Virus record (IMG/VR): IMGVR_UViG_3300040806_001064
Location: 1 to 27,605 of that record
Strand: one strand, 5' to 3'
Source of the DNA: a virus
DNA: 27,605 bases
The position numbers and the translations under genes are program-made. This document shows positions 21,986 to 25,339 of the stretch, one piece after another (positions within the stretch are counted from its first letter, which is position 1; each line of letters starts with the position of its first letter). The notes under the pieces are model-generated. The model ran no database searches. It was not told the DNA's origin and was given only the letters and a program-made list of their open reading frames with translations.

Positions 21986-22315
21986 TTACTTGTCTGACTT
22001 TTTGCTTGAACCTGTATAAAGACCAAACCAAGCCGCACCAGCACCAACTACGATACTAACCAAGCCTGATTGTTCCATTGTTGGATTAGGTAATTCCATA
22101 TACCAAACTACAACTTTGTATAATAGAACAATGTATGTTGTAATGAATACTCTTGGAAAAATTCTCCAACTATCAACTGCACGAGCCAAATGTATTAATC
22201 TTGCATATGGATTTGGTCCTAGATCTTTTACACTTGTGTCAACTTCTAATTCAACTGATACTTTTTTTGAAGCAGAATTTTGATCTGCTGGTACTACAAT
22301 CTTATCGTCACTCAT
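21986..22315 (-). CDS. Membrane protein, holin candidate (109 aa)
   Basis: 109 residues: a charged N-terminal tail of about 45, then two hydrophobic helices (IFPRVFITTYIVLLYKVVVW and SGLVSIVVGAGAAWFGLYTG) and a short basic end (SSKKSDK). The A-x-W-F-G-L-Y-x-x-G ending of the second helix is like putative holins of marine phages, as I recall. Position in the lysis region supports a holin or holin-associated role. ATGA overlap with the upstream gene at 22312-22315. Confidence 0.65.
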   Translation of the reverse strand: MSDDKIVVPADQNSASKKVSVELEVDTSVKDLGPNPYARLIHLARAVDSWRIFPRVFITTYIVLLYKVVVWYMELPNPTMEQSGLVSIVVGAGAAWFGLYTGSSKKSDK

Positions 22316-22596
22316 TTCTTTTTGCCCTCTAGTTTATCTAGACGAGACTCAATCTCGTCAATCTTTGAAGTTATCTTAGGATACTTTACACGCCAAGCAT
22401 TTGGATCATTTTGTAGCCAAGTCCAACCCCAACGTATTGCTAAGTATTCTAAGGTAGCATCAAACTTTTGTACGCCCCATGTTGCCATTCTTGTGTCTTT
22501 AAACCAGAACAAAAATGCGGCACCTAGTAATGACCCTGCAATACTAGTATAAATCCAAAGACGGTCGCCCGCCATCTGTGTAATCATTTCCCACAT
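22312..22596 (-). CDS. Single-pass membrane protein of the lysis region (94 aa)
   Basis: 94 residues: one N-terminal transmembrane helix (LWIYTSIAGSLLGAAFLFWF), a Trp-rich middle (WGVQKFDATLEYLAIRWGWT) and a C-terminal coiled coil (ITSKIDEIESRLDKLEGKKK). Preceded by GAGAGGG and a late promoter box, so it heads the last two genes of the lysis region. Could be a holin partner, antiholin or unrelated membrane protein. Confidence 0.65.
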   Translation of the reverse strand: MWEMITQMAGDRLWIYTSIAGSLLGAAFLFWFKDTRMATWGVQKFDATLEYLAIRWGWTWLQNDPNAWRVKYPKITSKIDEIESRLDKLEGKKK

Positions 22597-22620: not shown

Positions 22621-22628
22621 TATTTATC
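22621..22628 (-). promoter_or_regulatory. T4-type late promoter box GATAAATA
   Basis: GATAAATA on the minus strand, about 24 bp before the ATG at 22596. It overlaps the stop codon of the 24-residue frame. Confidence 0.6.
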
Positions 22629-22698
22629 GATTAGTGTTTGCTATAAGAAGATATAATAAGAAAGCAGTTAATACAGTGAAATAGAATAGAGCACACAT
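22624..22698 (-). CDS. Tiny hydrophobic peptide (24 aa), possible lysis-region microprotein
   Basis: A 24-codon frame, MCALFYFTVLTAFLLYLLIA followed by NTNR, almost all one transmembrane helix. Its ATG at 22698 comes three bases after the stop of the small lipoprotein gene, which would allow translational coupling; there is no own SD. The rest of the 100 bp gap holds only the late promoter. Function is not known; membrane peptides of this size in a lysis region might tune holin action. May be fortuitous. Confidence 0.35.
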   Translation of the reverse strand: MCALFYFTVLTAFLLYLLIANTNR

Positions 22699-22701
22699 AA
22701 T

Positions 22702-22869
22702 TTAAAAATTACACTTAATATTGGCTTTAGGAGTTACGTTTTTTCTTATAGTTTCAGTGTCTGTAGGAAGACCATCTACATTAACACCAGGGTTTACCTT
22801 ACAACTAGATTTGTTAGCACAACTACTTAGAAGGAGTAGTATTAGTATCAGGCTTAACTGCGTCTTCAT
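22702..22869 (-). CDS. Small lipoprotein overlapping the o-spanin gene (55 aa)
   Basis: 55 residues in a frame shifted relative to the gene upstream. The signal peptide MKTQLSLILILLLLSSCANK carries the lipobox L-S-S-C at Cys17. The mature part is about 38 residues with two more Cys (KSSCKVNPG and IKCNF) and a Pro/Thr-rich middle, the size of lambda Rz1. It overlaps the 3' end of the lipoprotein gene at 22823-23203 by 47 bp, much as Rz1 overlaps Rz. No obvious SD. Could be an additional spanin component or an exclusion lipoprotein. Confidence 0.6.
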   Translation of the reverse strand: MKTQLSLILILLLLSSCANKSSCKVNPGVNVDGLPTDTETIRKNVTPKANIKCNF

Positions 22870-23203
22870 AATAAACAATAATTTGCTTTTGTTGTTCTAT
22901 GTATCTACGAAGTTCAGCAAAATTTAAAGATAGGTTTTCGTAGTCTTTTACACTGATAGCAATGTATGCGTCAGCGCCATTCTTGGCTTCAAATTCTTTT
23001 ATAAACTCTTCGTAGTTCTCTTTTGAAACCACATAGATCTTAACATCGTTCAGTTGAACCGGCTTAGGTTGTGCAACGATAGGTACTGTTGTTTTTACCG
23101 TATTAGTTACTGTTACTATCTTTGGTTCCGGAGTCAGTAGACTGCATCCCGTTGTCAGGAGCAGTGATAGACTCAAGATCATCCCATAACTTATTAGTCG
23201 CAT
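22823..23203 (-). CDS. Lipoprotein, putative outer-membrane spanin (o-spanin)
   Basis: 126 residues from ATG at 23203 (AAAAGAGA precedes it; an upstream ATG at 23221 lies in front but gives a less typical signal peptide). The signal peptide MRLISYGMILSLSLLLTTGC ends in the lipobox L-T-T-G-C at Cys20. After a Pro/Val linker (PEPKIVTVTNTVKTTVPIVA) come LNDVKIYVVSKENYEEFIKE and SVKDYENLSLNFAELRRYIE with EQQKQIIVYYE, a helical region. It overlaps the inner-membrane spanin gene by 101 bp in another frame, the typical i-spanin/o-spanin layout. In the lysis model the two link inner and outer membranes and fuse them. Confidence 0.75.
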   Translation of the reverse strand: MRLISYGMILSLSLLLTTGCSLLTPEPKIVTVTNTVKTTVPIVAQPKPVQLNDVKIYVVSKENYEEFIKEFEAKNGADAYIAISVKDYENLSLNFAELRRYIEQQKQIIVYYEDAVKPDTNTTPSK

Positions 23204-23528
23204 TTTGCATTCTCTTTTCAATCAAACCTGGCTTCTTGTTAGCCAAGTGTGTTAGATTATGTTTTTGTAGAGTAGCACGAAGTTCATCTCCATACTTCTC
23301 TGCTTTTTGTAAATCGGTACTTAGTTGCATATTCAACTCGTTTATACGTAAATTTTCTGATCTTTCAAGTTTAAGACTTGATTCACTAACCTCAAGGGCA
23401 ACTTCCATTTTTGCTACATTTGCTCTAGCAATCTCTAAGTTTTTTTGCAAGTTCTTAACATATAGGAAAGCACCTCCAGCAGTTGCTAGAAGTATTAAAA
23501 TCATTACAATTCGAATTGAACTAAACAT
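23103..23528 (-). CDS. Inner-membrane spanin (Rz-like, i-spanin)
   Basis: 141 residues: N-terminal transmembrane helix (IVMILILLATAGGAFLYVKN) followed by a long periplasmic coiled coil (LEIARANVAKMEVALEVSES, NELNMQLSTDLQKAEKYGDE) and a Ser/Thr/Asp-rich end. This type II topology with coiled coil matches Rz proteins. It comes 6 bp after the endolysin gene and overlaps the lipoprotein gene. Confidence 0.8.
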   Translation of the reverse strand: MFSSIRIVMILILLATAGGAFLYVKNLQKNLEIARANVAKMEVALEVSESSLKLERSENLRINELNMQLSTDLQKAEKYGDELRATLQKHNLTHLANKKPGLIEKRMQNATNKLWDDLESITAPDNGMQSTDSGTKDSNSN

Positions 23529-23534
23529 TCTTAA

Positions 23535-24062
23535 TTATTCAGCCATCTCAATTGCTTTTTCTTTAGTAGCATTTACTCTTGAAGTCCAACCGTTTCCAAA
23601 AGTTTTAAATGTTGCTAATGACTCGTAGTATTCTTGTCTAATTTTCGAATATTCATTAATTGCATTTGTAATGCCATTTGCTTCAACATAACCTTGTGCT
23701 TTAGAAATAGTGTTAGGACCAATCCAGCCATCTACTTTAGCACCAACCATCATTTGTAAAAACTTAGTTGCTCTGTGTCTTCCACTATTTACACACATAT
23801 CAAACACTGCAAGGTCTAAACCTTTAGGAAGGTCGTCAGCAAGAATGCCTGCCCAGTAATTCTTTTTATAAATTGGTGTTACGTCTACTTCTGTAAGATT
23901 TTTAATTTTTTCTTTAGTAACTACTTTGCCAAACCAATCTTCATAAGTTTGTTTAGTAATGCCCATATTAGTTGCACCGCCTGGGTCTTTAGGATGATCA
24001 ACGTAACCACCTTCGTGTTCAAGAATAACTCTTAAACAGTTTTTAAAATTGTCTTTTGCCAT
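23535..24062 (-). CDS. Endolysin, glycoside hydrolase family 108-type muramidase
   Basis: 175 residues. The GH108 signature is at the N-terminus: ILEHEGGYVDHPKDPGGATN with catalytic Glu17 (E-G-G-Y) and GITKQTY. Conserved helices follow (LPKGLDLAVFDMCVNSG, RATKFLQMMVGAKVDGWIGP, where D-G-x-x-G-P is the peptidoglycan-binding part). It cleaves peptidoglycan at the end of infection. No signal peptide, so a holin should be needed. GAGG precedes the ATG; a CATAAATA box lies about 150 bp upstream inside the next gene. Confidence 0.9.
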   Translation of the reverse strand: MAKDNFKNCLRVILEHEGGYVDHPKDPGGATNMGITKQTYEDWFGKVVTKEKIKNLTEVDVTPIYKKNYWAGILADDLPKGLDLAVFDMCVNSGRHRATKFLQMMVGAKVDGWIGPNTISKAQGYVEANGITNAINEYSKIRQEYYESLATFKTFGNGWTSRVNATKEKAIEMAE

Positions 24063-25331: not shown

Positions 25332-25339
25332 TATTTATC
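25332..25339 (-). promoter_or_regulatory. T4-type late promoter box GATAAATA
   Basis: GATAAATA on the minus strand in the divergent intergenic region, with a leader of about 26 nt to the ATG at 25305. It heads the late run that ends in the lysis genes. Confidence 0.65.

Follow-up and report, generated by a model that had tools for sequence, protein, structure and literature searches.

Disruption of the outer membrane by tailed phages is usually described as the job of one or two proteins, and the locus analyzed here raises the question of what a further lipoprotein gene, lying directly behind a pair of overlapping spanin genes, contributes to it, and whether this short frame is a gene at all. 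The window, by which we mean the whole 27.6-kb record that was analyzed, is an incomplete genome of a marine virus of bacteria; of the named phages, Kyanoviridae give the closest DNA matches, for example Methylophilales phage Melnitz and Pelagibacter phages. Its minus-strand lysis cluster runs in the order GH108 endolysin, i-spanin, o-spanin, the second lipoprotein (lp2), a short hydrophobic frame (TM24), o94, o109, and DnaJ-like and deformylase-like proteins, the last two named by eye from their sequences. The features on which the analysis rests are:

23535..24062, minus strand: GH108 endolysin, 175 aa; Pfam PF05838 (E = 1e-29) and phrog_315 (E = 1e-49).
23103..23528, minus strand: i-spanin, 141 aa; Rz-like spanin family phrog_739 (E = 1.9e-11).
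22823..23203, minus strand: o-spanin lipoprotein, 126 aa from the ATG at 23203; Rz-like spanin family phrog_812 (E = 2.1e-14).
22823..22869, minus strand: 47-nt overlap of o-spanin and lp2, seen in the sequence and in the junctions of relatives.
22702..22869, minus strand: lp2, second lipoprotein, 55 aa, ATG at 22869 and stop at 22702; identified by its family and by dN < dS.
22624..22698, minus strand: TM24, open hydrophobic frame of 24 codons, ATG at 22698 and stop at 22624; probably not a gene.
22621..22628, minus strand: GATAAATA late-promoter-like motif, overlapping the TM24 stop.
22312..22596, minus strand: o94, with one N-terminal transmembrane segment and a C-terminal coiled-coil-like part (by eye).
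21986..22315, minus strand: o109, with about two transmembrane segments; phrog_10198, a family of unknown function (E = 3e-22).

An earlier note made from the letters alone had described this chain of small genes, and its coordinates and descriptions proved correct. The overlaps measure 101 nt between i-spanin and o-spanin and 47 nt between o-spanin and lp2. The note's assignment of an i-spanin followed by an o-spanin-like lipoprotein is borne out by the two family matches listed above. The pair has the features of a two-component spanin: the i-spanin carries an N-terminal transmembrane segment, a likely coiled coil and an Rz-like family assignment, and the o-spanin, for which the ORF list holds an alternative upstream TTG start at 23221 and which has 245 confirmed relatives on viral contigs, carries a lipobox (TTGC) in an overlapping gene. 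According to our cysteine census the i-spanin contains no cysteine and the lipobox Cys is the only one in the o-spanin, leaving both subunits without a periplasmic cysteine, a feature present in ~96% of known pairs that is common rather than strictly defining. Further downstream, o109 is a candidate holin; in Vibrio phage KVP40, a distance of ~2.8 kb separates its homolog and the annotated spanin. In several related clusters (L077, L004, L011, and others), the place of o109 is taken by small holin-like proteins with about two transmembrane segments; they have an EF-hand-like loop, DTNGDG (Pfam EF-hand E = 0.03, below the cut-off), and might bind calcium.

Our analysis identified lp2 as a genuine gene under selection. 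Homologs were gathered by profile search, by two DNA-pattern scans and by searching with o-spanins of a second type that has diverged from that of the window, yielding 29 distinct proteins on 55 viral contigs besides the window; these counts come from IMG/VR, depend on the search patterns and refer to loci chosen by similarity to the query. When every frame of 190 loci was scored with the lp2 profile, family members reached E ≤ 1.2e-9 (1e-9 to 4e-27) and the next frame E = 0.21. Among 28 aligned distinct proteins (the 29th, from L100/L104/L109/L110, is not in the alignment, its GTG start having escaped the script), the lipidated Cys, a second Cys, a Pro four residues past it, a third Cys and a Phe as the last residue (forming a C-terminal C-x-F) are invariant. 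No stop or frameshift of the kind that would speak against a gene was found, the frame being open in 55/55 contigs, and in close pairs dN is far lower than dS, indicative of purifying selection, with the mature part included. This mature part overlaps no other gene, and the L126/L127 pair differs there by 8 synonymous changes to 1 non-synonymous change. Between the window and its nearest relative, the lp2 DNA is identical, whereas o-spanin, i-spanin and TM24 differ.

The suggestion that the second lipoprotein is real and easily missed in annotation also holds: searches of lp2 against PHROGs, Pfam and NCBIfam returned no family match beyond the signal peptide or chance. No match was found in known phages by tblastn with two lp2 variants, and none in ~85,000 cellular genomes by a narrow pattern scan that covered the TTT-TAA ending only and is a weak negative. 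The lp2 product is a very small membrane-anchored protein, not described so far, whose conservation extends to many relatives.

The 24-residue transmembrane peptide that had been proposed to follow lp2 was not borne out as a gene. The TM24 frame, which starts 3 nt past the lp2 stop, is confined to the window and a single near-identical relative, 2/3 substitutions between them change the residue, and no ribosome site is evident by eye. In simulated random 105-nt spacers of the same composition, a transmembrane-like ATG frame of ≥24 codons appeared in 0.6% of cases (1.8% when GTG and TTG starts were allowed). The GATAAATA motif at its end is separated by 24 bases from the o94 ATG, and NATAAATA occurs seven times on the minus (coding) strand of the window and not once on the plus strand. 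These late-promoter-like motifs lie at 25339, 24215, 22628, 18343, 17703, 12543, and 11851, several of them shortly upstream of gene starts. TM24 is therefore probably a spacer holding a promoter, its frame open by chance (~0.6-2% in the simulation).

A spanin pair of one of two diverged types, that of the window and the second type used in our searches, lies directly upstream of lp2 in 47/55 other contigs; in the remaining eight, lp2 is located elsewhere (seven contigs, L087-L093) or the sequence begins just ahead of it (L117). Relative to the o-spanin stop, lp2 overlaps, abuts or starts just 3' of it (-59 to +6 nt), with one exception at +177 nt. In window-type loci, lp2 starts 47 nt ahead of the end of the o-spanin stop, and in second-type loci at -59, -44, -41, -1, 0, or +1 to +6, the +177 case also belonging here; junctions at -1 and 0 are typical of coupled translation. 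In the window, the o-spanin TAG (22825-22823) falls inside the lp2 lipobox codons AGT-AGT-TGT, and every long overlap likewise places this TAG within the lipobox codons, so that double coding is confined to the lp2 signal peptide and mature lp2 starts where the o-spanin ends. The equal junction geometry in two spanin types suggests that lp2 is a module that was exchanged or re-fitted at this point. Downstream, o94 is the usual neighbor of lp2, which thus sits between o-spanin and o94; this association is strong but confounded by phylogeny, and relatives lacking lp2 can have o94 ~30 nt past the o-spanin.

Two other genes were observed in related clusters. A CHAP-domain-like gene (Pfam CHAP E = 2e-4 for the L013/L015 version, just below the cut-off) is inserted ahead of o94, downstream of o-spanin or lp2, in L013, L015, and L018. 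In second-type clusters (L085:2907-3134; L100, L113), an acyl-carrier-protein-like gene lies between the endolysin/Zn-ribbon gene and the i-spanin; it scores above the Pfam PP-binding cut-off and has Glu or Asp in the position of the phosphopantetheine serine (GADEFD, GDDFD).

Regarding its distribution, lp2 is an accessory gene, cleanly missing from close relatives. It was found in 8/82 window-type loci (relatives of the window o-spanin) and in 28/67 second-type loci, and mapping its presence on the o-spanin trees gave three changes for the window type and five for the second. Since many relatives have the spanin pair alone, lp2 is dispensable. In the L087-L093 contigs, the lp2 homolog (L087:3989-4195) is located away from any detected spanin and is followed by a Zn-ribbon-like gene, with PAAR and baseplate-like genes downstream. 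These contigs are fragments, and the five that were searched yielded no phrog_739, phrog_812, type-B o-spanin, or phrog_315 endolysin.

The lp2 protein of the window has a signal peptide (residues 1-16), a lipobox LSSC at residues 14-17 and a mature part of 39 aa (residues 17-55; 35-52 aa across the family) with Cys17, Cys23, Cys53, and the terminal Phe55. AlphaFold predicts with moderate confidence (pLDDT 76, pTM 0.31) a hairpin with strands at residues 22-31 and 45-54, and in this model Cys23 and Cys53 sit at the strand ends, where a disulfide between them may close the small hairpin. Against the PDB, the model gave no fold match at E ≤ 0.001 and the sequence gave no match. Because lp2 could not reach across the periplasm at this length and the C-terminal region common to o-spanins is missing from it, lp2 itself is unlikely to function as a spanin.

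Our tentative preference, at a little under an even chance, is that lp2 serves the spanin/lysis module as a late accessory targeted to the outer membrane. Its translation would be joint with that of the o-spanin; the protein would then be delivered to the outer membrane, on its inner leaflet, fold into the Cys23-Cys53-closed hairpin and take part in lysis there, most simply as a helper or modulator of the outer-membrane step of the i-/o-spanin pair. A role in this step is favored by the position of lp2 in the lysis cluster, and the recurrence of lp2 behind spanin pairs of two diverged types at tight o-spanin spacing, its invariant residues and the purifying selection on its non-overlapping mature part are all in line with it, as is the fact that the i-spanins of the two lp2-associated types differ in their cysteines (0 vs. 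2). The patchy distribution, the L087-L093 lineage without a detected spanin, and a cysteine layout equal to that of superinfection-exclusion lipoproteins argue against it. We consider doubtful the more demanding version, in which the spanin system has lp2 as its third component: a disulfide-closed outer-membrane lipoprotein that would attach either to the o-spanin or to the outer membrane and that these phages would require to disrupt this membrane efficiently.

The main rival to a lysis role is receptor masking, a possible though less than probable function in which lp2, as a superinfection-exclusion or lytic-conversion lipoprotein like T5 Llp, T1/N15 Cor and Rtp45, would be made late and bind an outer-membrane receptor from the periplasm, so that progeny avoid debris and infected cells. 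Both Llp and Rtp45 are small lipoproteins known to act in exclusion from the periplasm; Rtp45 has a mass of ~6 kDa and a single disulfide (PMC9586334, PMC12685063). The build of lp2 is also that of T5 Llp, T1 Cor, and N15 Cor: the lipidated Cys is followed after a few residues by a second Cys, and a third lies within 2-4 residues of the C-terminus. By our rough estimate, however, this layout would arise by chance in ~1/15 two-cysteine peptides of this size, which makes it weak evidence; hhalign found no homology of the mature parts (probability 0.1%), and single-sequence comparisons of lp2 with Llp, Cor, and Rtp45 align the signal peptides only. The accessory distribution, the lineage encoding lp2 near baseplate-like genes, and weak phrog_1119 (Cor) matches in 4/29 members (best E = 0.016) are consistent with receptor masking, whereas in the window and most other contigs lp2 adjoins spanins and not a receptor-binding protein gene. 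With a shared cysteine layout but no homology, receptor masking stays a serious rival.

We regard it as unlikely that lp2 is a second o-spanin sharing the i-spanin, or the source of a covalent (disulfide) link that its cysteine-free pair lacks. The absence of periplasmic cysteines from both window subunits prompts the idea: according to a spanin survey, such pairs make up ~4% of two-component spanins and compensation by an unidentified lysis factor is possible, and lambda Rz1 likewise has a Cys soon past its lipid Cys, at position 29 (PMC6139136). However, at least 34 distinct cysteine-free window-type pairs occur without lp2, and second-type pairs, whose i-spanin carries two cysteines, often have lp2 as a neighbor; cysteine compensation by lp2 was rejected, as the census revealed no association. 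Matches to Rz1-like families are weak (best E = 0.006) and involve the signal-peptide end where coordinates are given, one extending to residue 45 of 60, and lp2 does not resemble the o-spanin C-terminal region.

Bacteriocin-release (colicin lysis) lipoproteins are small and similar in size to lp2, and this likeness in size and lipoprotein nature would fit a protein that perturbs the outer membrane alone, for instance via phospholipase activation. We hold this to be very improbable, since the family searches gave lp2 no match and two invariant cysteines and a C-x-F end are not known as features of the bacteriocin-release lipoproteins.

Returning to lp2 as an accessory of the lysis module, the window resembles the overlapped spanins T4 PseT.3/PseT.2 and lambda Rz/Rz1 in having an i-spanin with an N-terminal transmembrane segment, an overlapping o-spanin lipoprotein gene and an adjacent endolysin; it differs from both in the third gene, lp2, and in a spanin pair without periplasmic cysteine. 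Two lipoproteins behind one i-spanin had been called a non-standard arrangement, and we agree that it is unusual in the open-access literature: the spanin survey covers two-component and unimolecular spanins, and in the text of it that was searched there is no mention of an extra lipoprotein or of second or multiple spanins (PMC6139136). The Melnitz and Pelagibacter phage HTVC008M spanin regions encode a related i-spanin (phrog_739), joined in Melnitz by a phrog_812 o-spanin, and have no lp2; their spanins are annotated as hypothetical proteins. In Melnitz, the overlapping pair is QZI94767/QZI94768 (MZ577097.1 24173-24908; L081:3450-4185; phrog_739 E = 5e-17, phrog_812 E = 5e-15); the Melnitz paper proposes curli pores for lysis control, and a search of its accessible text found no mention of this pair (PMC9004378).

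As a small outer-membrane lipoprotein, lp2 falls into the same class as T5 Llp, T1/N15 Cor, and Rtp45, and Llp and Cor share its Cys pair near the start and end of the mature protein. Unlike lp2, these proteins are encoded at receptor-binding or tail-tip genes, and their mature parts are dissimilar and, in Llp, T1 Cor, and N15 Cor, longer (59-62 aa vs. 35-52 aa in lp2). Because lp2 is short, shares part of its frame with another gene and has no entry in the family libraries searched, it may have been overlooked elsewhere. A conserved third lipoprotein behind the o-spanin, associated with two diverged spanin types in T4-like marine phages, would add a player to the outer-membrane step of lysis; alternatively, it would mean that these phages bundle receptor masking with lysis.
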